A stretch of DNA of 64,000 nucleotides from Phragmites australis (Eukaryota > Streptophyta > Magnoliopsida > Poales > Poaceae). The notes beneath the pieces were generated by a model. That model was not told where the DNA came from, did no database searches, and saw nothing but the letters and a program-made list of their open reading frames with translations. Shown in pieces: positions 12,400 to 58,337 of this stretch; the first letter of the stretch is position 1, and each line of letters starts with the position of its first letter. The stretch is from the NCBI RefSeq assembly GCF_958298935.1, contig NC_084927.1:32252001-32316000 (forward strand), read 5' to 3'. Both the position numbers and the translations under genes were made by a program.

Positions 12400-13430
12400 T
12401 GCTAGTATATTGGATACTTATAATTTTTCCGATTTCACTCTAACATAACTCATTTCATAAAAGTATATTGTTAATTTGCTTGTTGAATCTCCAATATAGT
12501 TAAGTTTTAAATACGTAGAATAGTCAAATAATCATAACATATGTGATATATAAGGTTGTTGCTCTTACTCAATATCTGAATAAATATTCGTGACCGATAT
12601 TGTTTATATCGAACTCGTCATATATTTGATTTGTATTTATAACAAGACTATTCGTATTTGTATGTATATCCGATATTATTTATATCTAATTTCAAATTTA
12701 ATAAAAAATATAAAATAAAATATAACATTAGTGATATAAGTTCGTATCCGATTGGATTATACCCTGCTTAGATTCCGCAGGCCACCTGCTGTGCACGCGG
12801 ACGTCGCGCTCGACGCATCCATTGGATTTGACCCGCGGCTTGCGCGACTCACTAGTCCCGCCAGCCAACTTGGTAATGACCACTTCAAAGCCACCATTCG
12901 AGCACCTTACTGACATATAGGAATATTAATCCAATGGTTGCTACGAGTTTATTCGTTTTCTTTTAGTTTTTTGCCTCTTTTTGCTACGAGTCAAATAGGG
13001 TTTTTTTTTTAGGAAAGTCAAAGAGGATTGTGGATATAGACACATACTTTTGACCATCAGTAGGAGTCTGTTGTTTTTAGACCTGTCTTTGGGGACTTTA
13101 TATATTCTGTCTAAGTCAAGCACAAGATGACAAGAACAGAACGAAATAAAGTTCCCAGGCCATCTTCGGCCATGGTAGCTGCAGCACCTAAAAATGATGA
13201 GCTTTAACGGGCTAATTGGTTGCTCGCATAGGGTGATCTGCCTGCGAATGCATATAATATTAAGAAGATGTATATTTGATTATTTATATCTACTGTTTAA
13301 GTCTAGTTTAGCAAATGTAAATATATATCTTTAGTTTGGTGCAGGCTTCACTTTATAGCCAGTCTGATAAATAAAAATTCTTACATCCACTTATATAAAC
13401 GGACTCACTTATTAATATTATAAAATCATC
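12400..13430 (+). repeat. Segmental duplication copy 1, 5' block
   Basis: Matches 34,890-36,140 along its length. An AT-rich lead (CTAGTATATTG...) runs into a unique-looking GC-rich stretch (GATTCCGCAG, GACGTCGCGCTCGACGCATC, CCAATGGTTGCTACGAG) and then a MITE-like AT-rich tail. Small indels and substitutions separate the two. I infer that this is the left flank of the ancestral duplicated block. Confidence 0.85.
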
Positions 13431-14702
13431 TTCATACGAACAATTCATCGTAATATCAATTCTTATATCTATTTATACAAACTCATATTCGGCTAACTAA
13501 ACAGAAACTCAACTCAATTTATCCATACAAATACAATCAATCAAATACTCTTCTTTTTAATAAATATATTTCTGCTCAGCATGTTTCCTATCAACCTTTA
13601 TATACCATCCATACAGATAAGATCTCATACAAATAACCAATCACACTCTGAATACGATCGAACCCGATATGCATGTCCATATAATGACACAATTTAAAGG
13701 ATTGGACCACTTTTATTATTGGATTCACCTTACTTTGGAGGACAGGACATTTTATTCACCGTCCACGATCTCTGACGCCACCACACGAATTTGTCTCAAT
13801 GAAACCGTGATATATTAAACCTGCCAAACAGTATACCAATATTCTAGCAAATTTGAAATTTCTCCACTATTTATATTTATATATCATGTTCCTTATAATC
13901 CATAGCGGAGCTTGAATTGAAATTTAAAGAGGGTCAATGAAGCTAAATGAGTTTCAACTAAGCCGCAAAAGTCCGAATCAATAAAATATGAGCGATTAAA
14001 CTCAAAATATACTATAAAATCAAAAAATATACTATAGAAAACTTGTTAGACCAAGAGCACCGTGAACTCTCTAGTCACAGTGAACTCTCTAGTCACAATA
14101 ATGCTCCGCCCTGCTTACAATCCCACACTCTGGGAGTTCAGAACGAATATCATATCCTTTGGGTCCTTCATGAATCAACGCAGGGACCAAAGAGCAATCT
14201 GGAGCACTCGCTGACGCCGTGATCCAGATGATCGAGCAGCCAGTTTCACGGCAGTCGGCTCATTCATGGACCCTACTTGCCATGCTCGTCAGCCAGCAAA
14301 ATCCATCGGATCTTCAGATCGACACATAAATAAAAAGCCCTTTCAACATATATAATTACAAGGAAAATGTACCCAATGGATACATACTTAAAACGAGATC
14401 GCAGCACGACGCCACTAGCAAAATATGCTTGCTATCTCGCGAGTGGAGCGCATCGGCGCCCATACCAGAAGTGGAGCGTGTCGTCGTACCGCGACGATGA
14501 CGACGCAGATGAGATGGACCCCAACTCGCTCGCGTCCAGCTCGGGCTGGTCCCAGGGCATGCGGGGGCCGGGGCCTACATGAATGTCCCAATGGTGCGCC
14601 CGCGTCCTGTGAGATTAGGGTTTGGATCAGATAAAGGTCCAAGTTGAACCGCGTCAGAATGAGACGATGTGGGTGTGTTTTGTCTGCACGGCCCTAGATT
14701 AT
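13431..14702. other. Copy-1-specific intergenic DNA
   Basis: AT-rich non-coding DNA that is not matched in copy 2. Short words such as TATACCATCC and CAAATACT suggest old MITEs, and AACTCTCTAGTCACA is tandemly repeated at about 14,060-14,098. No gene is seen; the short open frames near 14,400-14,640 lack family similarity that I can recognise. Confidence 0.45.
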
Positions 14703-17064: not shown

Positions 17065-19450
17065 CCCTTTTCGGGGCGGATCCACGTTTTCACAGGAAAA
17101 AAATTACCATCGCTACCCTAGACGAGGAGGTCGTACGCATGGACGGGCCCTCCTCTCTTGCCCTGTTTTTTGGCGCTGCCCTGATAGCTTCTTTTTGCTT
17201 CATCGGCGTAATGGCGCCATTCGCTCTGTCACACCAACGTAGAAGCACTCGCGCGTCAAGTTTGAGGGCTCCAAGCCGCCATACAATGATACAAACAGAA
17301 GCTACAAATTTTCATGGTCTAGCACAAGGTCAAGAGGTCAAGTCATGTATTCTGTCTTTTCAAAAAAACATATTCTGCTTCATGATACCTAAAAGGTTAG
17401 ACATTTGTGTTTCCTTAATATTAGCAGGAAAATTAGCACATTTTTTATTTAATCCAATAATTGGGCCTAATAGATCCTCTATAAATCTAAACGAGCGTAA
17501 TTGCCCCAACCACACCCTTTCCCTCTCGTATGTCCACGTGCATATGAAAGACATATTATACGTTGAGAGCTGCTGAACAACATAAAACTTTATTGTCTGC
17601 TGATTATTCTCCTTAGCAATAGCCAAAAATCAAGCAAACAAGAGCTTGCACAAACCATCTCTATTTGTGGCATACATTCCAGCATAATTCTTTGTTTTAT
17701 TTTTTATTTTTTTGCGAAAGAGTCCAGCATAATTCTGAACGTACGTAGACAGGTCCATACATTATAAACGGGGTTGTTTCTTTGATTATCCAGAAAAGTA
17801 GGTTGAGACAGGGCGACTTTTTAGGCTTGAAACTGATCCAGACTCCAGACACCCAAACTTAACTCATGGTCATCCAGAAAGGTTCCGAGCCCAAAGGCAT
17901 GCAAAATTTCAGATTGGTTAATTAATTAGTCAAGGGAAAATAAGACTTTACATAGCTCTTCTAAATTTCGAAAAAAATAATATATTATAATGGGCGCAGT
18001 ATTGTTCTGATAAATAACCATACATTATAGTGTCCATCAGTAATTAGCAATTTTAAAATGTGCTCCAGCAAATAGCACATTTTTGCAGTGTGTCCTAGAA
18101 CTATTTTTTGGGGTACTTTAATTGGATGCAACTTGTCCGAACAAAATCATAAAAAGATAGCTATAAAGGGTACGCACGTGTGACAAGACTTTCGAATTGC
18201 AACAAGAGTGGGAGAAAATAAAATGATACCGCAAGCCAAAATCTTACAGGAAATAGCGTCTGGATTTCAGAGAAAAAGCACGATGCATGCATCTTCACCC
18301 ATGTATCAAGGTTGTTTGGACCAGCGCCCGGATTTACATTACTTCACTTTCAATTGAGAAAAGCTACAGAATGAGATCTCTTAAACTTTGGTGAAACCGC
18401 TCAAAAACCATGATTAAATCTCTCTGAAGCTTGCTTATTACATCTTGGAACTTGACATATTTAATATAAAACACTAGTACAGAAGCACCAATCCAAAACC
18501 CTTTATCACTATTGGTTCCTTAAAACCTAGCAGTGATAATGTATAATTGTCAGCTCGTGTTAAAGAACTGACAGTGATGATCCATCCAGAAAGAATAAGT
18601 AGTAAAAAACTATTATCACTATCGATTCATATTAAGACCTCTCATCTTGTCTAATCCATATTCTGCAAATCTACAGTAAAGCGATAGTAAAGAAAGTTTA
18701 TGTTACATGATCTCTTAAACTTGAGAAAAAGGTCACTTAAGCTTAGATGAAACCACTCAAAATAGGGATTAAACCTCTCTGAAACTTACATGAAACATTT
18801 TTTAAACGAGACATTTTAGATAAACACCGAAACTTCTGCCAACCTGCTATCCCGTCCCAGTGAGATCCCCTCGGCTAGTCTGCGGCTTGGCATTTTAGCT
18901 GAGTCCATATTTTAGCTAGCAATGTGAATGTTATTGTGTGTGTAAACCTCAATCATTGGTACGTTTGGCCACATTGCCTCCAAGTCGGCAAGTTGGGTGG
19001 CAAAATTGTTCACGCATTTCAGTAGCCGTATTCTACTATTTTATTTCTCCGAAAAATGGGGGTCAAGCAATAATAAAGCTATTTTCTGTTAAAGCAAGTT
19101 GCTAATCTGTTTGTTTTGTAACTTAAGTTGCATCTTATAGCAGTGGTTTCACGGACACAAAAAAGAAAATTAATGGGGTGGAAGTAAATTGCGCAATCCA
19201 CAAAAAAAGAAAAAAAATGAAAGCGGACACGGATCCCCTCAGCTCTGAATAAAACCAGGAAAAAAGTTACTAAAGCCGCACACTATCTAGCCCATTTTAG
19301 AAAGGTCGAGAGCGACGACGTGATTCTTCCCACACGCCTGAAAGTAACAGGCCGCCGTGCGGAGGGGCTGTGGCCACGTTGTTATTTTTCCTGAACTTGT
19401 TGTTCGCTTCCGGGGCACCAGCTCATCTCAAGCGAGCCCCTCACGCTTCC
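17065..19450. other. 5' flank of the first A-type DREB gene
   Basis: Non-coding. The part from 17,405 onward is shared with copy 2. 18,475-18,600 holds short repeats of the type CTATTGGTTCCTTAAAA and CAGTGAT, probably an old MITE present before the duplication. 18,240-18,470 and 18,660-18,850 share phrases such as ATGATCTCTTAAACTT and GAAACCACTCAAAA. No second gene is seen. Confidence 0.6.
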
Positions 19451-19456
19451 GCCTCC

Positions 19457-19464
19457 TTAAATAG
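19457..19464 (+). promoter_or_regulatory. Probable TATA box of the first A-type DREB gene
   Basis: TTAAATAG lies about 150 bp before the start codon and is conserved in copy 2 at 43,868-43,875. A conserved G-box CACGTG follows in the presumed leader (19,539-19,544; copy 2 43,947-43,952). Confidence 0.6.
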
Positions 19465-19615
19465 CCTCGTTCCTCCTCGTGAGTTTCCAGGGAACCTGCA
19501 TGCACGAGCACAGCCACAGCTACTGCTATATCCTTGCACACGTGCAGATAGAGATTGCTACGTGCATACTCATTGGGTGTAGTAGATCATATCGGAGCTG
19601 CTGCCCTAGCACTGA

Positions 19616-20206
19616 ATGTCTGAGCACGGCGAGCCGCCCTCGCCGCGGTCGTCGGGGAAGCACCCCTTCTACCGGGGCATCCGGAGCCGGAGCAGCAAGT
19701 GGGTTTCGGAAATCCGGGAGCCGAGGAAGGCGCGCCGCATCTGGCTCGGCACGTTCCCGACGGCCGAGATGGCCGCCGTGGCGTACGACGTGGCCGCCCG
19801 CGCGCTGCGCGGGCCCGACGCGGCGCTCAACTTCCCCGACCTAGCCGCCTCGCGCCCCGCGCCCGCGTCCACCTCCGCGGACGACATCCGCGCCGCCGCC
19901 GCGGAGGCCGCCGCGGCACTGCAGCAGCTGCCTCGTGGCGCTGCCGGACGCGGCATTGCTCCCGCGGCCGCTGGAACAGCGCGGCAGCAGCTCGGCGGGA
20001 GCAGCGCGGCGGCGCAGCAGGAAGGCAGCAGCGCGGCGAGCCCATACTTCATGGACGAGGAGGCGCTCTTCGAGACGCCGCAGTTCCTTCGCAACATGGC
20101 TGCCGGGATGATGATGAGCCCCCCCAGGCTCAGCCCCAACTCGTCCGACCACTCGCCGGACCCGTCGGAGGCCGGGGAGAGCCTCTGGAGCTACCGTGAT
20201 CCGTAG
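19616..20206 (+). CDS. DREB-type AP2/ERF transcription factor (A-4-like), paralogue 1
   Basis: A single-exon gene of 196 residues. One AP2/ERF domain spans residues 18-74, from FYRGIRSR to LNFP, with the YRG element, WLGTF and the [11 protein letters not shown] helix. Val30 and Glu35 correspond to V14 and E19 of the domain, the pair that marks DREB-type binding to CCGAC-core DNA. The PKK/RPAGRxKFxETRHP signature of CBF/DREB1 is absent, and REPRK after the second strand points to the A-4/TINY-like branch. The Ala/Gln-rich middle is low complexity. An acidic region ([11 protein letters not shown]) and a terminal LWSY (190-193) followed by RDP look like activation motifs. Expected to act in the nucleus. 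The ATG at 19,616 is the first in frame and lies about 150 bp after a TATA-like box. It differs from paralogue 2 at ten residues. Confidence 0.92.
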
Positions 20207-20682
20207 AGATTCCGGTAATGGCGATGACAATAATAATGATGAATAATAAGCTCTACCACTACTATTGCTGCAGTATTCCTGCAGAACTTGGAAGCTGGCT
20301 GGAATGATATGGGAGAGACAAGGAGGTACACATACAGGTGCCCGCCCGTGGAGGGAAGGACGATCTCCTTTTTATATTAATTGTCGCTTGGTCAGTGCAT
20401 ATGAAACTGCAAAGGGGATATATATATATATACACTTGAAATGCCAAATAGATGCCATACCGGTGTTGTATAAGTGGATGTAGTTGTGTAAGATCGTATT
20501 GGGCAAATTAATCGGTATTGTGGCGGTGGATCAGCTATAAGATGTGCGCGCAGCACATGGCTGCACCTTGCCCTTTTATAAACACTCTCTGCTTTGACTA
20601 TTCGCAGCTTACTCAAGTGTGTGGAGGGTGTGAACTTTTGCTTTTGAGTGGCTGGCCGTTGAAAGAAAAACGAAAAGATGCA
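20207..20682. other. 3' flank of the first A-type DREB gene
   Basis: Presumed 3' untranslated and flanking DNA, homologous to 44,610-45,148. It contains AATAATAATGATGAATAATAAG just after the stop, and a short (TA)n tract at 20,419-20,432 where copy 2 has a long (GTAT)n expansion. No clear terminator can be assigned. Confidence 0.6.
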
Positions 20683-21678: not shown

Positions 21679-22965
21679 GAGGGGAAATGGAGGACGGGTG
21701 GAAGAGAGAGGAAGCATAATTTTTTATTTAATATTGTGGGTCCCACGTTAGGTGCTAACCGTGCTATACGTTGGAGTATATTCTACCAAACTACCTCCAC
21801 TCTAATGGGTCTCATCTTAGTATAACAACATGACTAAACACTAAGGACTGTTTAGTTTTCCGTAAGGTCTTATCCTAGCTCGTATTAGTAAGTTAGGCTC
21901 TGTGCATGCAGTGTCTCTTCGTTTGATGGATTGTATATGCTTAGTTTAGTTGGGAATAGATTATGTTTAATTATTTATATGAATATGTATTGCATTAGAT
22001 TGAAATAAAAAAACAAATATTAATATGATGTTTATTTTATATAAATACACTCTATAATGCTTACTTTATTATATTAAGACTTAATCTAATTTAAAATATA
22101 CTAATAAGTTAATACTTACTAATCATATATTAATACTATTATTAATTGAACGCATACCTACATCCTACGAGCCTAACTATAGAGAAACGGCCAATTTCTT
22201 TGTTACCACCCAACCAAGCTCAGAAGCCCTTTTATGTTTTAAACCGGATCCAATAATATATAAAGACAACTAAATAACTGCTTACTAAATAAACATCCAA
22301 ACGAAGCCTAAAGGTACCAAAGAGCTAAACTGGACAACTTATCATGCTCCTCTAGGCTCGATACGTGTAAACGCCTCCTTAGGAACACGTGTAAGCGCAG
22401 TACTGAAGACGACAAAAGCAGTCCCAGCTTTATGCTGGTCCCCGCAGGAGTTCTGGACAGTGGTCCGCACCTGGCCCCCTCTACCTGCTGAGCCGCTGAG
22501 CGCGCACGCGCTGCCCGACGAGCAAAGCACGCCTTGGAGAGGGGCCGCGGCGGTACGGAGCACCTGGCGGCGCGGCGGCGGGGACGCAGCCGAACCGTCG
22601 AACAGAATCATGGCGTCACGGACGTATGTGTGGTCGTACAATTCTTGACCCCGCCGTGCATTTGTCCCTGAGCTATGCTGCGAATCTAGGGTCTCCATAT
22701 GGTTGGCTTTGCTTACCTGGCTGGGATTAGTGCCGCTCCGACAACATCAACAAGACCGGCAGCAAGTTCCCTTTCGAAGGTGCATAAATCATAATAGACC
22801 CGACAAAGACAGATCAACGATGTGCCTGATTAATTAACTATTGTTTTTGCATAGCTAGATTTGTTCCTGAGAAAAGAAGTCCGTAAATTTGACGCTATCA
22901 ATCTCAATGCCCAATCTGGCTACTCGGCAGTCTATTTGACAAAAATCCTCTGAACCACGGGCAGC
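21679..22965. other. Intergenic DNA, copy 1
   Basis: Mostly AT-rich. The stretch 21,842-22,315 is bounded by GGACTGTTTAGTTTTCC and an imperfect inverted counterpart (AAACATCCAAACGAAGCC) and may be a degraded MITE. 22,340-22,700 is GC-rich with a 118-residue minus-strand frame that has no recognisable family and is not conserved in copy 2, so I do not call it. Confidence 0.45.
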
Positions 22966-23388
22966 AGAATTAAGCGCTGACCAAATCGAGCAAAATCACC
23001 AGTAAATCCACCAAGGATAAGCAGTGATATAGTACCACTGTGATGGCGGTAATTTCTTGCACTCTCTACGGGTCCCAGTCCCGATCCATCCGTGCAGTTC
23101 GTGGAACAATTCGAACGGCGGTGTCATCATCAACTGAAAACCGCAAAACCAAACCCCGCAGACAGAGCATCAACTCGCCGCATGCCCATCCGATCCGCCC
23201 ATACGGCTCCAACACAAGATCACGCGCTCTCTAATTCACACGAGTCCACATCAAACCGCCCGCTTTAAAGCCCGGCCCATGAGTAGAAATCACGATCCTT
23301 CTCCTTGGGCCTTCTGTCAACGCCCCACCGCATCAAGACCACCCAAAATAGCAGCAGAATGAACAGAAAAACCCGGCCCACCACTGTG
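22966..23388 (+). repeat. Segmental duplication copy 1: distal promoter of a lost CBF gene
   Basis: The first part (22,966-23,186) matches 47,180-47,409 and the second part (23,187-23,388) matches 57,131-57,335, the upstream region of the intact CBF gene. Here the two parts are contiguous, which shows the arrangement before the 9.7-kb insertion of copy 2. Landmarks are GCGCTGACCAAATCGAGC, GATCCGCCCATACGG and CGCCCGCTTTAAAGCCCGGC. A CCGAC core found in copy 2 (57,153) is CCAAC here. Confidence 0.9.
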
Positions 23389-23431
23389 CCAATTCTGCCA
23401 TAGAGCCCCTTGCTTGCCTGTTTCGCGTAGT

Positions 23432-23625
23432 TGAGAAACCGCTGTTATCGAGTATAGTCTAGTGATATCTCGAGAGAATAATTATAAAATAAGATAAGAT
23501 ATAAGAGTAGGAGAAAGACTGCCTATTTTTTATTAATCTGTGTGTTACAATGCGGGGTTCTATCCTGTATATATAGTGCCAAAAATATATTAGTTCTAAT
23601 GACTATGTTGTCATTAATCACCAAA
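23432..23625 (-). repeat. 3' LTR of the copia element (approximate)
   Basis: Aligns with 28,657-28,870 for at least about 150 bp and then diverges. The inner border is approximate. Confidence 0.65.
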
Positions 23626-23632
23626 ATCATAA

Positions 23633-26600
23633 TCATAATCTAATAAAACCATTTTCTCTACAAGAAAGGTATCTATTTACTCTACCCTGATTCGGTAATG
23701 GTGTTCCTTCAGGTACCTTCATGTAAATATCTGAATCTAGACTAATATAAAGATATGCGGCCACAATATCCATCAATTTCATTTTCAACTCTAAGTTGAC
23801 TGCTATCGAGATTAAATATCTAAAAGTAATATCACCCATTACCAGGGAATATGTTTCTTCATAGTCAACGTCTGGTCGTTAAGTGAAACCTTGTGCAATT
23901 AGTCGTGCTTTGTACCTCATAATTTCATTCGTTTCATTTCTCTTATGAACAAAAACCCACTTGTATTCTATTGATTTGATATGGTGAGGTGTGCAACAAA
24001 CTTAACCAAAAACCTCTCTTTTATTCAAGGATAACAGTTTATCTGTTATTGCCTTCTGCCAGTCTTCTCAATCTGATCTCATGCTACATTCAGTGAGCGA
24101 TGTAAGTTTAGAGTCATGATCTAAACTGTGGCAATTTTATTTGTGAAGTATGTGTCAACTATTATTGTTGCTCTATTGCAGGATTCTTCTGAATTCATAT
24201 AGTTTATTGCTATTTCATCATGAGCTACACTTTTAGGTACTTCTACATCTTGCTCTTTATAATTTTTTACTGTTGGAGCAAGGTACTTTAGTTTACCAGC
24301 GTCAATTTTAGCGCGCGTATTTTCACTGATTTCTTCTGGCATGGGAAGATTCAAATCCAGTGCGCCTACTTACTAAGGTTCCATACCATCACCAGGTCTC
24401 AACTGGTTCGCCTTCCTTTTCCTTTAGGGCATTTTCATGATCGTTTATGGTAAGCTCTCATTTCCTACTTTCGCTAGACGTCTCCGACTGTTTGGTATTT
24501 GATGAACCAAATTTATTGTCTTTTTATTATTTTTTGGAGCTCTTAGGATAAGATGAGGGATACCTTCGTTTGGTACTTCTACCCTCTCCGGTGCATTGCG
24601 TGTAGGCACATACGTCTTAGTCACGCTCTTCAAATCACAAAAATAATCAAGCAGATCGTTTGCTAATTTATGCAAATCAATAATTTTCCATACTTCATCA
24701 TTTTGCTTCACTAGTGTGAGGATCATGTACTGCAATTTCTTCAATCTGCTATATAATTTTCTGACATTTTTCATCCAAATATATATTTCCTTTCCTTAAT
24801 GAAAAATTATTTTCATCAAAAATACAGTCAACGAAGCGGGATATATGCAGATTTCCAGTTGTTGGTTCTAAATATCAGATTATGGATGCAGTCTCATAAC
24901 CGGTATATATTCCAACTTGCTGCAAATGTCCAATAGTGGTTCACTGTGGCAGTGGTATTGGCACATAAACAATACATCCAAATTTACGTAAATAGAAAAT
25001 CTTCGGAATTACCCCTTGCACAAGTGGCAGAGGTGAATGGATGTTATAGGAGGATGATATATAATTAATGAGAGCTGCCGCATATAAGACTGCATATCCC
25101 TAACATGTAGCAGATAAATTCCAGTGTTGCAATAAAGATCTAGCAATAAACTTTATTCTTTTTATCAGCGCTTCGGCTAGTCCATTCTAAGTATGGACGT
25201 GCAGTACAGAATTTTCAACTTTAATTCTTATACCAGTGCAATAATCATCGAATGTTTTAGAAGTAAATTCTCCAGTATTATCCATTCTAATGGATTTCAT
25301 GAGATGATCTAAAAAATTATTCCTAATTTGTATGATCTGCAAGATCAACTTTGCAAAGACATGATTTGTAGGTAGATAATAGACATACATGCGACCATTT
25401 CGAGGATGAGTCTATTAATACCACGAAGTACCAAAACAAATTAGAGAGAGACTAAATTGGACCACAAATATCCCCCCAGATTCGGTCCAGGAATGCATAA
25501 ATTTTATCTTGTACCTTCAAGGTAGACGATCTTATTATTAATTTTCTGGTAGCGCATGCAAGGCATATAAAATCTTCATGATTCGGAAAATTCTTCACAT
25601 TTATGCCATGACCTTATGAATTAGTAATTATGTTTCTCATCATTCTAAGACTAGGATGACATAATCTATCATGTTATAGGGAGAATAATTTTGAACTACA
25701 AAACACAGTCTTCAAGGTAGTGAACATTTCAGGTGCTTTAATGCGAGTATAGTATAAGCCACTACTCAGTTACTCCCTATTATCTTCTTCACCCGTTTTT
25801 GCATGGAAACTGTTAGCGTGAATATCTTTAAAACTTAAGAGATTTCTTATAGAGTCATGGTGCAACAATACTTCATGTGCAATGTAGTTCCCACATGTAG
25901 TATGATTGTGGCTCTTTCAGAACCTACTATGCATTTCTCACTACCAGTGACAGTCATCACATTTTTAGAGCTATTTCTAATAGACTGAAAATACAGCTTT
26001 TCTCTTAAGATGGTGTTTGTGGTTCCATTATCCATAATACAGACTTCCTCTATGCGTGTGCCACACATATTCTATAAATAAGGCATTCAAACATTCACAT
26101 GCGAGGAAGTAGCAACAAGACTAAATGTTTTATTAACTATCTAAAGATATTGTTTTCAGCTAAGATTGCTCTTCTAGAACTTACATTTATTCATTCAATC
26201 TTCCTAAATCCAGAAACTAAGTAAATGGCTAATTACTTTGATTCTAAATAGAGTTTGCAAAATATCCGACCACTTCATCTTCAATAGCTTTCTTTTCCGC
26301 TTCATCCCTCATCACATCTTTTGTGGTAGTGGAGGAGGGTAAAGTAGAGGCCCCCGCATTCTTCATTGGGAGGTCTTTTACTGCTAGTGCGGGAGCGTCA
26401 TCAACTTCTATTTGAGATGCATCCCTTTCAACTATGGCTGCTTTGTCCTCTTCCATCCCCACTACAATGGTGATGTGTACTTCTAGTAGCTCCTTCTTCT
26501 TCTGGTATTCCACAACATGCTTTAGTGCTTTATAGATTCGGGATCAATGACCCCAAACACCGCACTTATAGCATGTCTGGCTCTACTTGGCTTGACTTCT

Positions 26601-28870: not shown

Positions 28871-28877
28871 TGCGTGC

Positions 28878-30459: not shown

Positions 30460-30469
30460 CAACAAAACG

Positions 30470-31834: not shown

Positions 31835-31844
31835 CAACAAAACG

Positions 31845-43875: not shown

Positions 43876-44018
43876 CCGCGTTCCTCCTCGTGAGTTTCCA
43901 GGGAACCTGCATGTACGAGCAAAGCCACAGTTACTGCTACCTTGCACACGTGAAGATAGAGATTGCTACGTCCATAGTCATTGGGTGTAGTAGATCGGAG
44001 CTGCTGCCCTAACACTGA

Positions 44019-47156: not shown

Positions 47157-47409
47157 CAAGAATTAAGCAACAAAATTAAGCGCTGACCAAATCGAGCACA
47201 ACCACTAGTAAATCTACCAAGGATAAGCAGTGATACAATACCACTATGGTGGCGGTAATTTCTTGCACTCTCTGCAGGTCCCAATCCCGACCCATCCCGA
47301 GTAATTCGATGCAAATGCATACAGCTCGTGGAATGATTCAACGGCGATGTTATCATCAACTAAAAACCGCAAAACCAAACCCCAAAGACAGAGCATCTAC
47401 CCGTCGCTT
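47157..47409 (+). repeat. Segmental duplication copy 2: start of the CBF upstream region
   Basis: Matches 22,966-23,186. It breaks at CATCTACCCGTCGC, where copy 1 runs straight on into the promoter block that copy 2 resumes at 57,131. Confidence 0.88.
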
Positions 47410-47499
47410 GTCTGAATTATATATATACGACGAATTGTTCTACGCCTAGACGCACTGTAGTTCATTGTTACACAACCCCAGTTACAACTCAAAAACTGT

Positions 47500-47840
47500 T
47501 AGTTACGACAGATAGATAGTTAAGTTACGATCACATGACAAAATGTATATAATTACGACTAGAGAAGGTATCCGAGTTACGACCATATATATTTATAGTA
47601 ACTGACATATCTTGTGAATCGCAACTATACTGCTTTTAGGATCGTAACTGGAGGGTGTGCACAGAGGTGAACAAGTTACGATCACATGATAAAAAGTACA
47701 TAATTACGACAAGAGAAGGTATCCAAGTTACAACCATATATATTTATAGTAACTGACATATCTTGTGGATCGTATCTATACTGCTTTTAGGATCATAACT
47801 GGAGGTATGCGCAGAGATAAACTATGTTACATCTAGACAC
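47500..47840. repeat. Tandem repeat of a ~151-bp unit, two copies
   Basis: GTTACGATCACATGA at 47,524 and 47,675. Both units contain GAGAAGGTATCC, CCATATATATTTATAGTAAC and CATATCTTGTG. A third, partial unit may precede them. Confidence 0.85.
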
Positions 47841-47889
47841 ATAATAGATATACAATGTGTGTATAAATGTTATATTACACTTATAATGT

Positions 47890-49370
47890 AAAATAATATT
47901 CTACACCTAAAACTCAAATAATATTCTACACCAAGCCGACCCAACACAACCTCCCCTATTGGTTACCATCCGGCACCACCCAACCCAACACCCTACTCGA
48001 CATTGCTCCTATCCAACACCGATACCTTCCCTAGAAACCTCGTTACCTTTCCTAATGATGCCTTCCTCCGGCAACCCCAATCCCAACTCCGGCGATCATC
48101 TCCCCTTTCCGGCCGGGGCCTCATCTTGCGACCTCGATCCTATCTCCAACGACCTCGTTCCCCTCCCTGGCAACCCCATCCCCCTCCCTGGTATTGAATT
48201 GGGGCAGCTACGCACCCAGCGAAGATCTAGAGTCGGTAGGGGAACAGGACCCAGACAGGAATCGGATCGAGGCAGTATCCATGAGCTCTGTGCGTAAGGA
48301 ATCATTGGAGTGATCGTTGCAAGCTCTGATCCAGGTGGGAATCGAAGGTATCCGGTATCCCTAACTCTCCCCTATAATTACTAATTCGGGTTCGTGATAT
48401 TTTTGTGGATTTGTGACTTTTTTCTGATTCTGTCTATAGAATCGTTTTGTTGATCAAGGGAGAATTAGAGAATTATGTGCTGCACTTTTTTAATTCGTGA
48501 AGATGAATACATGCTCACATGTTTGACAAATGATTCAGATGTCACAAGTTCACTGCAATGCACAGAGATGTAGATCGACGTGGAACACTCATTTTTGTTC
48601 AGATTTGTTTGTTGAGAAATTGTTCTTTTTCAAAATGTTCAGATGCATAATGGTTTCTATGATCATATAGGCTAATATAAATATATGATCTTTGTTGCAG
48701 ACCCAAAATAACCATGTTCCATCTTCAGTTTGCTTCTGCATTCAAACAACAGTACTTATGGTCATCATAGCCATTGTTGTGTGTTCATACTACTTGTAAT
48801 CATATTTCCAGTCCACCTCACAGCATGGATGAACTTGGGCAACCTGGCCATGCAGCAGGGGGACTTAGTGTTGTTTCAGCCTGGTTCCAAGAGAAATGGT
48901 GAGAACAGCATGCAAGAAGTAGCTCTTATGACACATTGATATGAAACAGGCCGGTAAAAATTGAAAAGCACTTGTAGCCTGCATTGATATGCTGAATGTT
49001 TTAGCTCGATGTTGTTTCAATAGTTGTATCTTCATATTGTAAGTTAACTATACCATTGTATTGGCTCCTTGGGTAGCAACATGGAAACTCTTTTATTTTT
49101 TCCTCTAAGATAAATGAAGGACAATGCTCCTGCCATTTGCGTCAATATTTTCAGTCCACCACATGTACATTGGTGTAATCAAAATGGGAAATAGCGCAGC
49201 AAGCGCATGATAGTGTATGAAATGTACGAAAATGTGCAATTCCTCTTTAATACGAAGCTTACTCTTTTGAGAGATTCGTGTAATGAAACATGGACCATCT
49301 ACCAAATTACTAAAGAAATTCATTAAACTACTGAATAATGTTTCTATGACTTGGACACCTAAAAATTGTA
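47890..49370. other. Unclassified part of the copy-2 insertion
   Basis: Pro/Ser-rich open stretch at 47,959-48,297 without similarity to a family I know. At about 48,811-48,903 a short open stretch reads SPPHSMDELGQPGHAAGG...SAWFQEKW and may be an exon from a captured gene. No splice pattern or start could be confirmed. Confidence 0.3.
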
Positions 49371-49379
49371 TAAGAATTT

Positions 49380-51900
49380 GCTATAATATGGATTAGTAGT
49401 TCTTCAGTGTCCTCATTTTTTCTTCAGTAGATCCAAGATTTTTCTATAACTTAGATTCGGTAGTTCTTCAGTAATCTTCAATTGTCCTTTGGTAGTCCTC
49501 CTTTTTCTTCAGTAGTTTTACCTATTTTTTTATAGTTCAAAGTCGTAGCAAACTCCACTAACTTCGGTAGTTTCCTTTACTTTAGTATGTCATCACCTTC
49601 TCAATAGTTGGATATAAGATCATGCCGGTAACAAATTACTTTTGCAATTTTGCTATGACTTGAAACTACTGAATGATAAAAACCTGATTCAATGTTTTGG
49701 TAGTACTCTCTCTGCTTTAGTAGTCCTCGAAAATTACCAAATAATTTTTCTATAACTTGTATGCCTGAAAACTGTACTAAGTGTAAGAATTTTCTATAGC
49801 TTGGATCAGTAGCTCCTTAGTAGTTCTTTTTTCTTCAATATCTTTCTTCAATAAGTTCCCTTTCACTTTAGTATTTTTTATTTTCTACAGTACCTTCCTA
49901 TAACTTGGATCAGTAGTTTCGGTAGTCCTTTGTAGTTTCTCTTTTTCTTCAGTATTGTTTCTTTTCTTCAAGTAGTTCCAAAAGCATTTATTGAAAAAAA
50001 ATTCCTATTATTCGGTAGTGCATCCAAGTCATTTGAAATTGCGTCAATAATTCATCCTTGGATGGTTTGCTAGTTCATCCTTTTAGTAGTTCCAAGATGT
50101 AGCAAATTTAGTAGTTCCAAGATGTAGCAAATTTGCTAGTTCATCCTTTTAGTAGTTCCAAGATGTAGCAAATTTAGTAGTTCCAAGATGTAGCAAATTC
50201 CAATACTTCCAACTCAAGTGACATTGTGTCAGTAGTATCCCTTCGGTGGTTCAGTAGCTTTGAGTCCTAACAATTTGTATCATTAGTCACCCTTTTCATG
50301 CTTCAGTAGTTCATCCAAGTCGTAGCAATCCCAGTATGCACAATCTAATTTCCCCCAACATTTGGACTTGACCTACCAACCGGGAGATGATCCTTTGCCA
50401 TCCCGTGAATTTTTTTATACACCCAATAGTCAAGCATCAATAGATAATTCAGTAGCTATGTCTTAGGCCATTCAATAGAAATTCAGTACACAGTCAATAG
50501 CAATGAATTGTACACTTAGTAGGCATTCAGTAGGCCGGCTCTAATAGACATTCAGTAGAAAATCAGACACTAATAGGTATTTAGTAGACAGGTGGTAGCT
50601 ATGCAGCATACATTCAGTAGGCATTCAGTAGGCAATGTGAGCAGTAAAGACAAGTAATGGAATACTGAGATACTGCTGATATTTTCAAAAGTATTGAGAT
50701 AGTACAACACCAAAACAATGCACTTATTGATCACTACTGCAGTGGCGGGGAGCCTCAGTAGTAGCCTCCGGTGAGTTTTTCCACTCCGGTCGCCGCTCCG
50801 TGACAGGGGAAGGAAGTCAGCTAGTTTGCGTTGGTGTGGGGCACAAAAACAAGGTAATTTGTTGGGATGCGGAGGGACGGGCAGGTTCGATCGTTAGGTG
50901 GTTCGATCCGACACAAGGGAACCAAGTTTGTCTGGTCGGCTACCTACTTGGCATACACATATATATACATACATATATATAACATTATTCTACACCCTAG
51001 GTGTAGAATACTATTCTACACCAACAAGCCTAACCAACTCTGGCTTCCTCCTGTCAGATCGAGCTCACCCCCCCCCCCCCCCGACCCCTTGCTTCTTTTC
51101 TCTTCTTCCACCGACCTTGCCTCCCCTCAATTGTAACAGGCTCGCCTTCTTCTATGCGTTGCTCCAACGCCCGGGCTCCTCTCTTCTCCCCTACGTCCCG
51201 TCGCTTCTCCTACTAGAGACATCGCACCTCCCTGCCTGCAAAAATCTTGCACAGATATGGATGAATCGACTCCAATGCCGAGGGCTTCAGCAGGCGGGTT
51301 TGTTTTAATCCAATTTGAGGATGGCTAAATGAGAAGAGAAAGAAAAAATGGTGATTTAGGTAGATAAGTGGATTCGGTTAGCTGCGCCATAGTCTTTGCT
51401 TGGAAGATCTGGTGTGTTGCGTGCTCCGGATTGTGCGACCCTCTTCTTGTCGATTTGGGGAAAAAGTGATCACATACTGAGCTGTGAGATGGAGAAGCAG
51501 AGGGAGCATCAGTAAATTTGAGAAGAGGGTCAAGCATCTAGGGATCACATCTTGTGTTTTGCTATGCATTCAATAATGATATAGGGATCACATCTGGTGT
51601 TTTGTTATGCATTCAGTAATGACTGCTTAATCCTTTACTGAGTTGGTACGGTGAGCATTAAGTACTATTGAGTATTGAAATTTTTACTATGATTTGGAAG
51701 CTACAAATTAACCTAAGTGTTGGAACTTGCTATAGCTTGGAACTACTAAAAAGGATGATCTACTAAAAAGGATTTCTATTGAAGAAAAAAGAAAGGATTA
51801 ACTATTGAAACAAGAGGTTAAACTACTGAAGGGAGGACTACTGATCCAAATGATAGCAAAATCAATTTACTATGACTCAGAGTTACTAAACTAACAAGCA
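49380..51900. repeat. Zone of AGTAGTTC / TTCAGTAG words, with inverse orientation at the right
   Basis: Between 49,390 and 50,640 the plus strand repeats TTCAGTAGT(T/C)C and later ATTCAGTAG(G/A)CA; 50,085-50,200 is a local tandem of AGTAGTTCCAAGATGTAGCAAATT-like units. At 51,720-51,850 the same words are inverted (GAACTACTAAA, CTACTGAAG). Opposite orientation at two ends is what subterminal repeats of a DNA transposon look like. A C15 run lies at 51,068-51,082. Confidence 0.55.
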
Positions 51901-51924
51901 ACAACAGTTGCACGAAGACGAACA

Positions 51925-53935
51925 TACACCTACTGGCAAGCGACGAGGACATCTCCCACCACTTGGAGGCATACCTCATGTGGTTGTTCGGGTGGATCAT
52001 GTTCACCGAGACCCATAGCAGCACGGTCTCGAGGAGCATGATCCTATACGCCAGAGAGGTTGCGGACGCCGACCCAGGGGGTCCAACAGTATAGCTGGGC
52101 TTCTGTCGTGCTTGCTGCGATATACTATGGCCTGTGCGACACCTGCACGAAAACAGACGACAACGCGATTCTCATCGAGTGTCCCCTGACTTCAAATGTT
52201 GTCATATGAGCGCTTCGCCATCGGTAGGCCCATTCTGGACCATAGTGCATACTAGTTCACTACAGACGACATCGACGGCCTGACCTTGGGATCATCGTGG
52301 TGCAGACAGAGGGTAAGAGCTCTGAACTTTGTACGTATTTGTTCATTACCTCCTTTTTTGTTTGTCTAACTTAGTTTGGTTGTACAACCATCTTGGTTCA
52401 CTGTGTAGACACACCACGTATACCCGGACTTCATTCACCAGTTCGATGAGCTGACGGTAAATGACGTCCGCTGGAAGCCATACACGGAGGATGAGGTACA
52501 TCTACATGCTCGCTTGAACTTTCGGTGTTGTGCTTACATGACCGGGAGTCCTAGCTCATGTGGTGCACCCTTGTCTGCAACATCTACATCGAGGAGTACT
52601 CACCGCATCATGTGATACGACAGTTCAGGAAGTTCTAGGCGTTTTCGATCCCAATGACTAGGACAGTGCCTAGAAACATGCACAGGTGTGTAACGTTGTA
52701 ATTACCTTTTAATTGGAGACACTGCAGTATGTTTTTTTCATTTTCTTATGTTTTTACAGGTTGAAGCGCAATGCGACTCGTGTGCAAACGTGGGTTGACA
52801 AATAGGACCATGCTGTCAAGAACGTTGTGGACAAGGATCAGCCGCACTCTGGGGAGGCGTACGTGGAGTACTTGTCCTGGTTCATGGCTCGAATGCACAT
52901 CGGGTCACGTACACATCGACCGAGCTTCCGCGGCACATGCAGAACATTCACGACACGTATCCGACTCACAGGGACTATGTGCGTTCCTTTGAGGTACATA
53001 TAGTACTACGCGACTCCTCATTTACTACACTTGTTGGTACAAAAAATTATGTAATCAAATGAAACTTTTATTTACAGAGGGACATTCTGCACCATGTTGA
53101 GGTTTAGGCATGGGTGACCAAGGTCCGAATCGACAGTGGCCTCGAGATCCCCAAGGCCGAGGTGAGCGCAACATTAGGCCAGATTATCTGATAGGTGAAC
53201 AAGGTCTGCAGGTCGCAAAGCTACAAGTCATCCTCAGACGTTGCAACGGGAGCACAAGCATCGGTTCCTCTACCAGCACGCCCATTCGTCACATTCATCG
53301 AGCTGTCGCACCCACCAGTACGTCTAACCTTCATCGCAGAGTTGTCGAGGTCATCTTCCACCCCGAATTTTGACCCCTACTACGGTAGCGCCTTGGCTAG
53401 GCAGTCCTTCTCTGGGGTCAGTGACCCCCACTACAGCGGTTCCTGGGCTAGGCATTCTTTCTCTAGTGCCGGTGACCACTTCTACGCTGGTAGCGGATCC
53501 ACATAGCCTTCCTCCATGGACCTGGGTCCTTCGAGTTCTCGCGCCCCTGGCTCAGGTACGGCACTTGCTTCATGAATAACCAATTGTTACGTATATCATG
53601 CTTTATCAGTGTTAACATGTTTTCTTCATTATTCCATGTGTAGAGATTGACGATCTCAGGGACGTAGAGGCGCAAGGTAGCTACATGGTGTTGCTCACTA
53701 GGGACGGTAATCAGGTCTGTGGATACTCATACATCTTTCGACAAAGTGACGAGCTCGGTGCGTCGTAGCTACCTGGCGTGCCACTTACAGAGACATTGTC
53801 CTCCCATGACGACTACGCCATTCCACCGCCTGTTGCATGGCCTACGCGGACGATTGTGCCACCGGACCCGCTGACGTACTCAGCTGACTAGGTGAGAGCG
53901 CAGAGACGCAGGTCCTGAGGGCGGATGCAACCAGG
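51925..53935 (+). pseudogene. Plant mobile domain (PMD) transposon gene, decayed
   Basis: Reading across frames, the + strand encodes the order typical of plant-mobile-domain proteins of Mutator-like and gypsy-type elements: HHLEAYLMWLFGWIMFTETH (about 51,950-52,010), ARE-ADADPG, SW-SVVLAAIYYGLCDTCTKT (about 52,090-52,160), then, after a frame change, LQMLSYERFAIGRPILDHS, DDIDGLTLGSSWCRQR (about 52,270-52,310), YPDFIHQFDELTVNDVRWKPY (52,420-52,490), and RNATRVQTWVDK and YVEYLSWFMARMHIGS (52,770-52,910). GT/AG-like borders (TGCAGACAGAGG|GTAAGA; TTTTTACAGG) suggest introns. Internal stops (for example after SAY and after TWVDK) and frame shifts show it is dead. PMD proteins derive from transposons and some are domesticated in silencing. 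Confidence 0.78.
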
Positions 53936-55119
53936 GGTCATCCCAAAGAGGAGCCATAACATATAGGCTACTATGTTATAGCTAGTTTCATTGTGTTATG
54001 ATACTATGTTAATGTTAATGTAATGGTACTTTCTCATGTTACCATGTTATTATTAGTATCATAATATCTTTCATGTACCGTGTTTTTGTTTTGTGATTCT
54101 ATTTGGACCATAGAGTCATACCACGAGTATTCCATAACAATCATAATAAACGCATCGACCTAACGTATAATGGTATATATGATACCCCAAGCGATGTACT
54201 AGAGTTTCTCCTAACATGCCTTAGGGAATGTAAAAGGGCAAAGATTGATGGCACTATACACAAATTACAATGTCATCCTAACAGTGATTCTAATTGTACT
54301 GACTTAAAATGAACTGTGAGGAGGCTTCTGAGTCGCAATAATCTCCAACATTGTATTACACTGACAGAGGAGGAGGAGCATCCCTATTGTGGCATGGGTA
54401 GGTGCACCATGGATCAATGCATACAGAAAGGTTCTCCATGTATATTACATGAGGACTTGGCGTATTCTCCACCTCCCTCTGCAAGTCGAAGATTTGGTCT
54501 CGCATGTGGTGGACATAATCTTGGATATGCTGTAAAACAAGAGGATCGACCAATCTTGTGTATTGGCAGTTGTCGGGGTCATCATCGGAGGCCTGTAGAA
54601 ATATGAAGGTCACAAAGTATAATATTTTCAAAAATGATACGGATGGTTATGGTGATATAGTTCTCACCCTATCAAGAGGAAAACAGAAAATCGACGCCCC
54701 ACATGAATGCTCCCATTGTACATCTGAACGATGCAATAGTAGCCATGTGAGCACTTGGGCCATGGCTCATTCGGGTGCTCATAAACACTTAGGTGACTTG
54801 TAGGACAAAAATAACTCATATCCTGCAAAAGGAAGTTGTAGAGAGGTTCCCCATGCTCAATTAGACCAAACGAACCCTCCCATCTTACCGTTGGCCTCCC
54901 TGCCCCCCCCCCCCCCCCCGTCTTCCTCGCCCCCTCCCACCCCTACCCTTCATTGATCTTTGTGGATTTAGTTTCTAGATACATGAGTTTTTTATAGATG
55001 CGTTGTAGCAGCATATGTTCTTTTACCATGGTATAATATTACCGTCAAATTTGTGTTACCCGTACACATGCAATTGTGATAATAAAACATGTACTTTATT
55101 TTTAGACCTAGCCTTTTAA
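53936..55119. other. Copy-2 insertion: unclassified stretch
   Basis: Holds short open frames on both strands (54,103-54,312 and 54,558-54,803 on plus, 54,356-54,631 on minus). The minus frame includes PLVLQHIQDYVHHMRDQIFD and CIDPWCTYPCHNR, protein-like but unrecognised. A C17 run is at 54,903-54,919. Confidence 0.35.
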
Positions 55120-55325
55120 AAAATAGCATTCTCATCAGTAGCCTTTTTAAAGGAATCTTTTTCAGACCTAGACTTTTCAGAAATAGTCTTTTCAGACATT
55201 TTTAGATATAGGCTTTTCAGAAGTAGCCTTTTCAGAAGTAGTCTTTTCAAATGTAGACTTTTTAGAAGTAGCCTTTTCAGAAGTAGATTTTTTAGAAATA
55301 GCATTTTCAGTTGATATGACCACAT
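55120..55325. repeat. 15-bp minisatellite (CTTTTCAGAAGTAG type)
   Basis: About a dozen diverged 15-bp steps, each containing TTTTCAGA and ending TAG. On the minus strand it translates as Lys-Ser/Arg-Leu-Leu-Leu repeats, a by-product of the period. Confidence 0.85.
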
Positions 55326-55469
55326 CTTATTGCAAAATCAAATGTTTTCCAGGGTCGATTTTCGTGGACTTAGTCCATGCATCAGCACGAATCCACTGTA
55401 TAAATAGATAATCGCATGCTCATATGTAAAACCAAACCACTAGCCTCAACCTCCATAACTCCGACGAAA

Positions 55470-56073
55470 ATGGCGTCCGGTCCTTTCTCCAAGAAATACA
55501 TGCCTGGTACTACGCCTGATGGGATCGAAGTGTCCATGTGCTAGTGTGGAGACATTTATAGTGCGATGAAGTCCTTTGAGTTCTCCTATACCTACGGAAG
55601 GAGGTTCTTCATATGCCACAACTACAAGTACGATCCACCCTAAGGAAGCATCAATGTTGGCTCCCGTCGCCAAGTAATAACTTCTTGACAAACTACTCCA
55701 AAGCAACTAAAATTTACCACTTAACATTTTGATCTTTATTACAGTCACCACCACCATTATGTGACTTATTACAGTGGTTGGTTACTGAGCAGTCTGAAGC
55801 AGATGCATTCCTCTTCACACCGAGCACCCCGCCACTTGAAGACGCTTCCATGAGATGGAAGCAGACGAGAGTAGGGAGGCTATGCTCAAACGTATTCAGA
55901 AGGATCAGCAAAAAATGAGGGAGGAGCATAACCGTATGATGACAATGGCTCGTGAGGCGGAGAGGGAGAGGAAGCAAACAGGTGACGCAGGACCCGAAGT
56001 GGTGAGGAAGGAAAAGTACCCATATTGCACTCAGTATACCAGATATTATAATCATGTCGTTTATATTCCCTAA
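55470..56073 (+). pseudogene. GRF-zinc-finger / coiled-coil transposon-associated gene, decayed
   Basis: From ATG 55,470 the frame reads MASGPFSKKYMPGTTPDG, then VSMC-stop-CGD (TAG at 55,542-55,544 between the first two Cys), KSFEFSYTYGRRFFICHNYKYDPP, then a stop. The spacing C-x-C...GRRFxxC is that of the GRF zinc finger in grass transposon proteins. Downstream, 55,855-56,072 (probably another exon) encodes MEADESREAMLKRIQKDQQKM and a Glu/Arg-rich coiled-coil segment. The short protein family is common beside plant-mobile-domain and Mutator-like sequences. The nonsense codon and frame changes mark it as dead. Confidence 0.68.
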
Positions 56074-57130
56074 TACATGTTATGTTTAGATGTTGTACTT
56101 GTTTATGTTATAATGATCGTGTACCGTATATACCAACACCCGTGTATGTCGCAGTTCCCATTAAAATCATCATGCTCAACTTTCTGTTTTCGTCAAATCC
56201 GAGTATCCAAAATTACGCACAAACATCTAATGGCACTAAAAGATTCGACAGCAAAAAAATTGCGGTGCACAGACGCCTATTCTACCGCAAATTAAATTAA
56301 TTCGGCCAAAGCAAGATCTCGTTCGGTAAACGGGTGACACGTCTCACGTGTGCGATTGTTCATTCCTTGACAGCTAGGTCCCACAATGTGTCATCCGATC
56401 CTTGTTCTCACCCGATGAACGGGCAACGACAGTCTATTGTTGCAATTCTATGTAATTTTTCAAATAGAGTAAATTTCACAAAACTACAGATACTCTGATA
56501 AAATTATCTCAAAACTAGAAATTTAAGCAATAGTTTCACAAAACTACAAGTTTAGTATCAATTTTATCACAAAACTATAGATTTAAGCAATAGTTTCACA
56601 AAACTACAGATTTAGTGCCGATTTTATCGCAAAACTACCAATACTTTGACAAAATTATCGCAAAACTACATATTAAAGCAAAATTTTCATAAAACTATAG
56701 ATTTAACGCTGATTTTATCGTAAAACTACATATTCTAGAGGAGTTATTACCAGCCTCGTTACTATGATGATCGAGTCCCGTTTAGAGTCTCACAACAGTT
56801 GCCATCTCATGAAATGGAACGTCCGAGAGCTCATGAAACTACACATACTTTGATAAAATTGTCGTAAATCGTAAAATTACAGATTTAAACAATAATTTTA
56901 CAAAACTACAAATTTAACACCGATTTTATCGTAGAACTATAGATTCTATCGCAGACCTATTAACCTGATGAATGGGTCCCGCTTACAGTCACATTAACTC
57001 CGAATGATCCATCTCATGAGTTGGCAGCTGCTGTGAGACTACAAATAGTATCCGATCGTTATGATAACAGAGCTAAGAATAACTATCTTGCGACATTTAC
57101 CCTTGCAAATGTAAAAGAAATTAAAAAGTC
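56074..57130. repeat. AT-rich zone with a ~61-bp repeat (TTTCACAAAACTAC type)
   Basis: Between 56,467 and 56,960 the phrase GCAATAGTTTCACAAAACTAC recurs (56,526 and 56,587) with related copies, mixed with TTTATCGCAAAACTA. The words resemble the outer arms of the hairpin at 20.7 kb. No gene. Confidence 0.7.
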
Positions 57131-57608
57131 CATCTGATCCGCCCATACGGCTCCGACACGAGATCACGCGCTCTCTAACTCATACGAGTCCACATCAAAC
57201 CGCCCGCTTTAAAGCCCGGCTCATGAGTAGAAATCACGATCCTTCTCCTTGGGGCTTCTGTCAACGCCCGTCCGCATCAAGACCACCCAAAAATAGCAGC
57301 ACAAATGAACAGCAAAGCCCAGCCCACCACCGCGTCCCCATCCGGTTCCGCGCGGCCACCAGCTGGTCCGACAGCCAACCTAGCATCCCACCCAACCAAC
57401 ACCCATCCCGCGCGGACCCGGCTCACACATCGCGCTTCTCCTAGCTGGCGCCCTTGTGTCACACGCCGCGTTGCAGCCGCGCCCGCGCCCGCGCCCGTAC
57501 GTCCCCGTCCCAAGCATCGAAAACTATATAAGCCGTTGCCTGCTCTTTCCCTCCCCAATTCAAACCAAGTAAGAACAATTCAAGACCCTTGTCTAGGCGA
57601 CTGGACTG
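57131..57608 (+). promoter_or_regulatory. Promoter and leader of the CBF gene
   Basis: TATATAAG at 57,525-57,532 lies about 80 bp before the ATG, which is a normal distance. Upstream are CCGAC cores at 57,153-57,157 and 57,368-57,372 and an E-box CAGCTG at 57,360-57,365, plausible sites for DREB feedback and for bHLH (ICE1-type) control by family knowledge. 57,131-57,509 is duplicated, in pieces, at 23.19-23.39 and 28.88-29.05 kb. Confidence 0.75.
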
Positions 57609-58337
57609 ATGGACTGGGCTTGCTCCGGCAGTGGCTACTACTCCTCGGGAACGCAGTCTCCTCCGGCGGGCGGCAACGAGGACGAGGACGCGTACATGAC
57701 TGTCTCGTCGGTGCCGCCGAAGAGGCGCGCGGGGAGGACCAAGTTCAAGGAGACGAGGCACCCGGTGTACAAGGGCGTGCGCAGCAGGAACCCCGGGAGG
57801 TGGGTCTGCGAGGTCCGGGAACCCCACGGCAGGCAGAGGATCTGGCTTGGCACCTTCGAGACCGCCGAGATGGCGGCGCGCGCGCACGACGTCGCCGCGC
57901 TAGCGCTGCGCAGCCGCGCGGCGTGCCTCAACTTCGCCGACTCGCTGCGAAGGCTCCGCGCGCCGCCGCTGGGGGCCTGGCACGACGAGATACGCCTTGC
58001 CGCGGTGGAGGCCGCCAAGCTGTTCCGTCCGCAGCCCGGGCAGCACAATGCAGCTGCCGAGACGGGGGTGATCGCGGCTCCCGGCGCCCAGGGGAGCGCG
58101 GAGCTGGGTGCCCACTTCCCTTACTACCCGGTGGAGGATGGGCTGGAGTTCGAAATGCAGGGGTACCTTGACATGGCGCAGGGGATGCTCATCGATCCGC
58201 CACTGCCGACTGCGGCGCCGTCAGCGTGGATGGAGGACGAGTACGACTGCGAGGTCAGTCTTTGGAGCTATACTGATCGTGCGTTCTTGGACTCGGCTGG
58301 CTTTGGCGCGAAGGACGCAATGTACGGCTTATGTTAA
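57609..58337 (+). CDS. DREB1G: CBF/DREB1 transcription factor, DREB1G-like
   Basis: A single-exon, 242-residue protein with the CBF signature [17 protein letters not shown] (36-52) before the AP2 domain (53-110) and DSLRR (111-115) after it; DSAWR is more usual at that place. Val66 and Glu71 match V14 and E19 of the DREB type. The Ala-rich, acidic C-terminal half ([23 protein letters not shown]...) and LWSY (218-221) are the activation region. N-terminal YYSSGT...AYMTVSS and the [20 protein letters not shown] segment recall rice DREB1G. CBF proteins bind CCGAC (DRE/CRT) sites in the nucleus and drive cold, drought and salt responses. LWSY is normally terminal, but here 21 residues ([10 protein letters not shown]... 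to YGLC) follow. The ATG is the first after the TATA box. Confidence 0.95.

Follow-up and report, generated by a model that had tools for sequence, protein, structure and literature searches.

The window analysed here is a 64,000-nucleotide stretch of Phragmites australis (C7:32252001-32316000), and it carries most of a tandemly duplicated block built around an A-type DREB III gene and a neighbouring CBF/DREB1 gene. A single tandem duplication of this two-gene block, after which each copy took up its own insertions and the left copy lost its CBF, very probably explains the locus. The A-type gene is intact in both copies (A1 on the left, A2 on the right), and the only CBF stands in the right copy. 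Events of this kind, a gene duplication and then a loss, are ordinary, and this one is unusually well resolved.

P. australis has been described as an allotetraploid (PMC11330502), and C7 belongs to one of its two subgenomes. A second locus of the A-type gene, with 88% DNA identity, lies on C13. It resembles C7 in gene order but, unlike C7, the 90 kb examined there by tblastn hold one A-type gene and one CBF, the latter ending in LWSY; their translations are identical to the P. australis proteins P0003 and P0122, respectively (P numbers denote listed homologues). The C13 locus was taken as the homeologue of the window locus and used as outgroup, and such a built-in outgroup makes most steps countable. 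Positions marked w follow the window numbering, extended along C7 where they fall below 1 or above 64000, and positions marked c are C13 positions minus 25790000.

Collinear copies and the extent of the duplicated unit

Self-BLAST of the window (E<=1e-8) returned 47 off-diagonal matches. Among them are all four pairs reported in a preliminary description of this DNA, found where it had placed them, in the same order and all plus/plus (Table 1), and the dot-plot that it proposed as a check gives one diagonal. When the left unit was compared with the right unit at the same threshold, 14 of 17 plus-strand matches lay on the diagonal, and the remaining three were one AP2-domain cross-match and two fold-back matches. 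Scattered repeats standing in order by chance might be suspected from the transposon-like nature of pair 1 and from three fold-backs that match one another. The probability of such an arrangement is negligible, as pairs 2-4 are collinear, take in intact genes as well as a gene promoter and have counterparts in the outgroup locus, and as only 1 of 20 block-shuffled right units used as controls gave any matches (two, against none in the other 19 runs).

Pair 1 most likely belongs to the duplicated block, because its transversion rate is near that of the A-gene flanks and because it has weak collinear matches in C13. Over 898 sites, 146 transitions and 44 transversions were counted, a transversion rate of 0.049, close to the 0.040 (101/2522) of six A-gene flank segments. 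Internal pieces match C13 collinearly, if weakly, at c11097-11211 and c11546-11603 (E 7e-7 to 1e-10). The excess divergence of this pair consists mostly of transitions, as in methylated sequence. The 20-nt inverted ends of the old transposon-like sequence lie at 12336-12355 and 13416-13435, and homology stops at the inverted-repeat end, for which reason two independent transposon insertions were considered; this was rejected on the collinear C13 matches and the similar transversion age.

The left unit, 12402-34700, corresponds to the right unit, 34892-66961. The left unit measures 22.3 kb today, in keeping with the unit near 23 kb first proposed, and the right one 32.1 kb; the duplicated span, which had been taken to end at 58337, reaches 66961, outside the window. 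On the left, the flank w7385-11941 matches C13 c2743-4785, and on the right, w66962-84767 has a gapped match to C13 that extends to c50869. Comparison of the outer flanks with the opposite side (124 kb of C7) gave only a weak 162-bp match, 13407-13568/77253-77401 at 72%, which begins inside the left unit; some local repeats were also seen. This flank layout is the one to be expected of a tandem duplication. The copies are collinear and head to tail, the flanks fit an unduplicated relative and a new junction lies between the units, which together characterise a tandem segmental duplication.

In a polyploid, repeat-rich genome, two haplotypes or homeologues could have been joined end to end during assembly. 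Here, however, the homeologue occupies a locus of its own on C13, the copies differ (K, divergence per site, 0.05-0.14, with pair 1, fold-backs and the tandem-repeat piece excluded) and carry private insertions of 0.4-9.7 kb, and the C13 matches of the outer flanks fall on the expected sides, so that the chance of an assembly artefact is very remote. The C13 locus and the flanks past the window bear out the earlier proposal of one ancestral two-gene block that was duplicated once and then underwent insertions and losses.

Table 1. Coordinates and properties of the features of the duplicated locus
Feature	Position	Strand	Remark
Pair 1	12402-13435 / 34892-36137	plus/plus	self-BLAST
Pair 2	17402-20653 / 41045-45149	plus/plus	self-BLAST, five pieces, 82-90%
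Pair 3	22961-23184 / 47167-47410	plus/plus	self-BLAST
Pair 4	23186-23384 + 28878-29046 / 57130-57330 + 57346-57509	plus/plus	self-BLAST
Left copy, unit start, old transposon-like	12402..13435	+	matches 34892-36137
Left copy, A-type gene and flanks	17402..20653	+	five pieces matching 41045-45149
A1, intact A-type coding sequence	19616..20206	+	196 aa, ERF025/ERF027-like, DREB III
Left distal CBF promoter, uninterrupted	22961..23384	+	matches 47167-47410 + 57130-57330
5.5 kb insertion, left CBF promoter	23385..28877	.	right copy uninterrupted; C13 with ~39-bp insertion only
Left CBF core-promoter relic	28878..29046	+	matches 57346-57509
Scar in place of left CBF	29047..30003	.	957 bp of other sequence, no match to right copy
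Left copy, downstream of CBF, with tandem repeat	30004..30469	+	matches w65559-65854 in two pieces, 77.7% and 94.2%
Fold-back transposon, left copy only	30470..31834	.	10-bp target-site duplication CAACAAAACG; right copy is the empty site
Left copy, downstream of CBF	31835..32861	+	matches w65845-66858 at 93.9%; C13 c30547-31173
1.7 kb stretch, left copy only	32862..34593	.
Left copy, last piece, right breakpoint	34594..34700	+	matches w66846-66961 at 87%; C13 c35177-35276
Tandem junction	34701..34891	.	~190 bp, no significant match to either flank
Right copy, unit start	34892..36137	+	matches 12402-13435
Right copy, A-type gene and flanks	41045..45149	+	matches 17402-20653
~0.42 kb stretch, right copy only	42701..43124	.	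13-bp terminal inverted repeats
A2, intact A-type coding sequence	44019..44609	+	196 aa, 10 residues unlike A1
Right distal CBF promoter part	47167..47410	+	cut off by 9.7 kb insert
9.7 kb insertion, right CBF promoter	47411..57129	.	left copy and C13 uninterrupted
Right CBF promoter common to left relic	57130..57509	+
Only CBF gene of the two units	57609..58337	+	242 aa, DREB1E/HvCBF11 clade
C13 A-type gene	C13:25807037-25807654 (c17037-17654)
C13 CBF gene	C13:25814866-25815531 (c24866-25531)		protein ends LWSY

Loss of the left CBF and the state of the surviving one

The left copy retains sequence from both sides of a CBF without the gene itself. Upstream, 22496-23320 is contiguous with C13 c20458-21320, and homology of the core-promoter relic ends about 15 bp ahead of the TATA box (57525 in the right copy) and 100 bp ahead of the right-copy ATG. 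For the scar that follows, nothing in the right copy matches from the promoter there as far as 65559. Permissive tblastn found no coding remnant of the left CBF; beyond the two A genes, which share the AP2 domain, the best match in the window had an E of 0.23. Since the gene is absent between two stretches that flank CBF elsewhere, the left CBF appears to have been deleted after the duplication.

The abrupt end of the relic short of the TATA box, together with the lack of a coding remnant, would also suit a unit that ended inside the CBF promoter, in which case the left copy never had the gene. Such a partial duplication was rejected, and is highly unlikely, on the downstream-of-CBF sequence in the left copy, where three pieces are collinear with the right copy and two of them also with C13; it survives only if these pieces arrived by a separate event. 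Because part of the left tail is found downstream of CBF both in the right copy and in C13, the duplicated unit spanned CBF and ended near c35276.

In the favoured sequence of duplication and subsequent loss, the ancestral locus held the A-type DREB III gene and then a DREB1E-type CBF. A single head-to-tail duplication took in everything from about 12402 to a point that in the C13 locus of today lies about 10 kb past CBF, and the new junction formed within 34701-34891. Each copy then took its own insertions, and the left CBF, presumably whole at duplication, was deleted and replaced by about 1 kb of other sequence, while the promoter relic and the downstream region stayed; this order of the later events is our reconstruction. 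Both A-type genes and the right CBF are still open reading frames.

The relic now has no gene to serve, and such an orphan promoter offers a testable case of release from constraint. With C13 as outgroup, 162 sites of the relic core show seven changes on the left branch and one on the right (binomial p 0.07), whereas eight other noncoding segments together have 70 left and 81 right changes (Fisher p 0.03 for the relic core versus these). Faster change of the relic core through release from constraint is only suggested by these counts, because one segment was chosen from nine and its neighbour goes the other way.

The surviving CBF has an AP2 domain and is placed by the tree in the DREB1E/HvCBF11 clade, so that DREB1G, which had been named as the reference gene, is the wrong paralogue. 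All 52 CBF homologues examined (P0122-P0173 of 120 listed) end in LWSY (49) or LWNY (3), whereas the window CBF keeps the LWSY motif and continues for 21 more residues (58255-58337). Just ahead of the ancestral stop it has a 2-bp insertion relative to C13 (AGCTATACTGATCG versus AGCTACTGATCG in C13), from which the 21 extra residues are predicted. By its tree placement the window CBF may be read as a variant member of CBF/DREB1, because the LWSY motif itself is kept. Special decay of this gene was considered and rejected, as it deviates at six of the 90%-conserved columns compared with five in P0122 (median 3), and its end branch measures 0.12 versus 0.13 for P0122.

Divergence, age and insertions

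The synonymous divergence (dS) of the genes at 19,616 and 44,019, which the preliminary description had put forward as a check, is about 0.10: 0.100 by NG86 (bootstrap 95% 0.049-0.152) and 0.127 by YN00. This is roughly half of the between-subgenome value, as A1 and its C13 homeologue differ by 0.225 (NG86) or 0.276 (YN00). Subgenome Ks peaks of 0.2 (30.9 million years) and 0.205-0.211 (23.9 million years) are given in PMC11330502 and PMC11742667. Scaled from a dS of 0.10, the duplication would be about 11-16 million years old, with wide error. The locus is an example, datable against two subgenomes, of how duplication of a DREB III/CBF pair resolves by unequal gene loss.

A1 and A2 belong to the DREB III A-type, with PF00847 (one AP2 domain, P0001) and a tree grouping with ERF025/ERF027-like proteins, in which A1 and A2 are sisters (100/93) and Arundo donax falls outside. 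To polarise the changes between them, the state seen most often among 53 homologues (P0002-P0054 of 120 listed) was used, which assigns positions 6, 27 and 146 to A1 and positions 28, 40, 68, 78, 97, 127 and 160 to A2. Positions 27, 28 and 40 are invariant in 53/53 homologues examined; A2 has N28 and S40 (44100-44138) where all 53 have K and R, respectively. Position 28 aligns with the lysine of GKF in AtERF1, which we take to contact DNA. The pairwise dN/dS (dN, nonsynonymous divergence) of about 0.28 (bootstrap 0.13-0.67) points to constraint on the A copies. A1 is 93% identical to the Arundo donax protein P0002 in the protein search and 95% over the tree columns, and about 85% identical to the C13 homeologue. 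That A1 is nearer to Arundo donax than to its homeologue has a bearing on how the subgenomes of Phragmites arose.

Divergence between left and right is not even. The main downstream block has a K of about 0.05 and the A-gene flanks have values of 0.05-0.11, compared with 0.14 for the distal promoter piece and 0.23-0.34 for pair 1. Several observations weigh against a single duplication followed by simple decay. Transversions amount to 0.046 (58/1256) in the largest A-gene flank compared with 0.022 (22/1011) in the main downstream-of-CBF block, and K reaches 0.25 in the tandem-repeat piece 30004-30276, uneven along the block. The ~190-bp junction sequence is not accounted for by either flank, and for about 72% of the left unit no partner can be recognised, with 6288 of its 22299 bases lying under collinear matches when fold-back elements are excluded. 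In addition, the asymmetry of the promoter relic comes from few changes, and the relic segment next to it shows the opposite (2 left, 5 right).

Given this unevenness, later conversion or a two-step history is possible, in which the unit was duplicated and the CBF-side parts later underwent exchange or gene conversion. In favour of such a history, transversion divergence in the main downstream-of-CBF block is roughly half that in the largest A-gene flank, although the distances of the far-upstream A flank and the downstream block from C13 are about equal (transversions 108/745 and 143/944). On C13-alignable sites, however, the contrast is modest, with 119/1596 changed sites in three A-side segments versus 73/1372 in four CBF-side segments; the latter exclude CBF-up1 and CBF-up3, and adding CBF-up1 gives 98/1583. 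Two steps are thus unlikely, and the single duplication is retained. The lower divergence near CBF is not fully explained by it, and later conversion may have contributed.

The CBF promoter is interrupted by an insertion of 5.5 kb in the left copy and by one of 9.7 kb in the right, and in C13 this promoter stretch carries a separate insertion of about 3.2 kb (25811320-25814500). These lie upstream of CBF at about -271 (5.5 kb), about -479 (9.7 kb) and -345 to -310 (~3.2 kb), so that three independent large insertions fall within about 210 bp of promoter (57130-57345; three homologous loci), and at each place the other two copies are essentially uninterrupted. Target-site duplications of the 5.5 and 9.7 kb inserts were looked for and none were seen, and the frames scanned within the large inserts (from 19 of 91 listed frames scanned overall) had no Pfam family match. 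In one joint reading, which we regard as doubtful, the promoter between about 270 and 480 bp upstream of CBF would be a preferred landing site for large insertions, and promoter disruption would have freed the left CBF for loss while the A-type duplicate was kept and began to change at the presumed DNA-contact position (K28N in A2).

The fold-back transposon of the left copy inserted after the duplication, as the right copy is an empty site. Fold-back repeats at 20683-21678, 30469-31835 and ~45139-45927 match one another with K of 0.24, 0.23 and 0.21. These three (20.7, 30.5 and 45.1 kb) were rejected as duplicates of one another because they are about equidistant in all three comparisons.

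The A-type/CBF pair in grasses and other features of the window

The A-type gene and CBF are an old neighbour pair in the grasses looked at. Locus-tag pairs were read by eye from two protein listings of 120 rows each, which is not a systematic count. Among the matches listed, consecutive A-type/CBF locus tags occur in Setaria viridis (7G217100/7G217200), Stipagrostis (010148/010149, 026460/026461), Aristida (011355/011356, 006169/006170), Paspalum vaginatum (06G205600/205700, 04G240800/240700) and Eleusine (gb09355/gb09356). In P. australis itself, the distance from A-type to CBF is about 7 kb on C13, 17 kb on C5 and 30 kb on C6; the P. australis proteins P0090 and P0150 have 100% matches on C5, as P0093 and P0153 do on C6. 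Since the pair already stands side by side, the inclusion of both genes in one large tandem duplication is expected. The joint duplication had at first been described as unusual; the surprise was apparent only, as the two genes travel together from an adjoining position.

Comparable neighbour pairs exist in rice. In PMC3473061, Os02g45420/Os04g48330 and Os02g45450/Os04g48350 are given as paralogous pairs that share their intervals on chromosomes 2 and 4, and Os02g45450 and Os04g48350 are DREB1 genes. Os02g45420 and Os04g48330 would then be the A-type genes, and OSIGBa0127A14.7, the rice protein with which the A-type of the window groups in the tree, probably corresponds to Os04g48330. According to the list of that paper the rice intervals have one gene of each kind, whereas in reed C7 the A-type is doubled. 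Two A-type proteins each, with contigs of equal length, were also found in Zizania latifolia (P0043/P0044) and Alopecurus (P0030/P0052), which suggests further A-type gene copies elsewhere in these grasses.

The CBF/DREB1 arrays described in cereals and legumes (PMC10670769, PMC4046650) are likewise tandem DREB expansions, but they multiply CBF, whereas reed C7 keeps the A-type twice and the extra CBF is gone. A review (PMC11897497), citing Nie et al. 2022, states that CBF arose from a DREB III gene by tandem duplication, and on that account a DREB III gene adjoins CBF because of this origin. The duplication that gave rise to CBF is ancient; that of the reed was found in only one of the Phragmites subgenomes. 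Neither DREB nor CBF is mentioned in the main texts of the Phragmites genome papers PMC11330502 and PMC11742667. In Linum perenne, a 300-aa gene model (P0110) has an A-type half and a CBF half, so that it is either a true fusion or the neighbour pair merged during annotation.

Rfam and tRNA scans of the window gave no matches. The Pfam scan covered 19 of the 91 listed stop-free frames and the CBF coding sequence, among which only an integrase (522-1430), a gypsy-type domain (5572-6483) and the AP2 of CBF were above the curated cut-off; three more matches were all below it. Upstream of the right promoter piece, 46459-47163 is GC-rich, looks coding and is possibly a captured gene fragment; 46459-46857, the single frame scanned in it, had no Pfam match. 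Adjoining the retroelement integrase fragment is a tandem repeat array of a 107-bp unit at 1776-2615.

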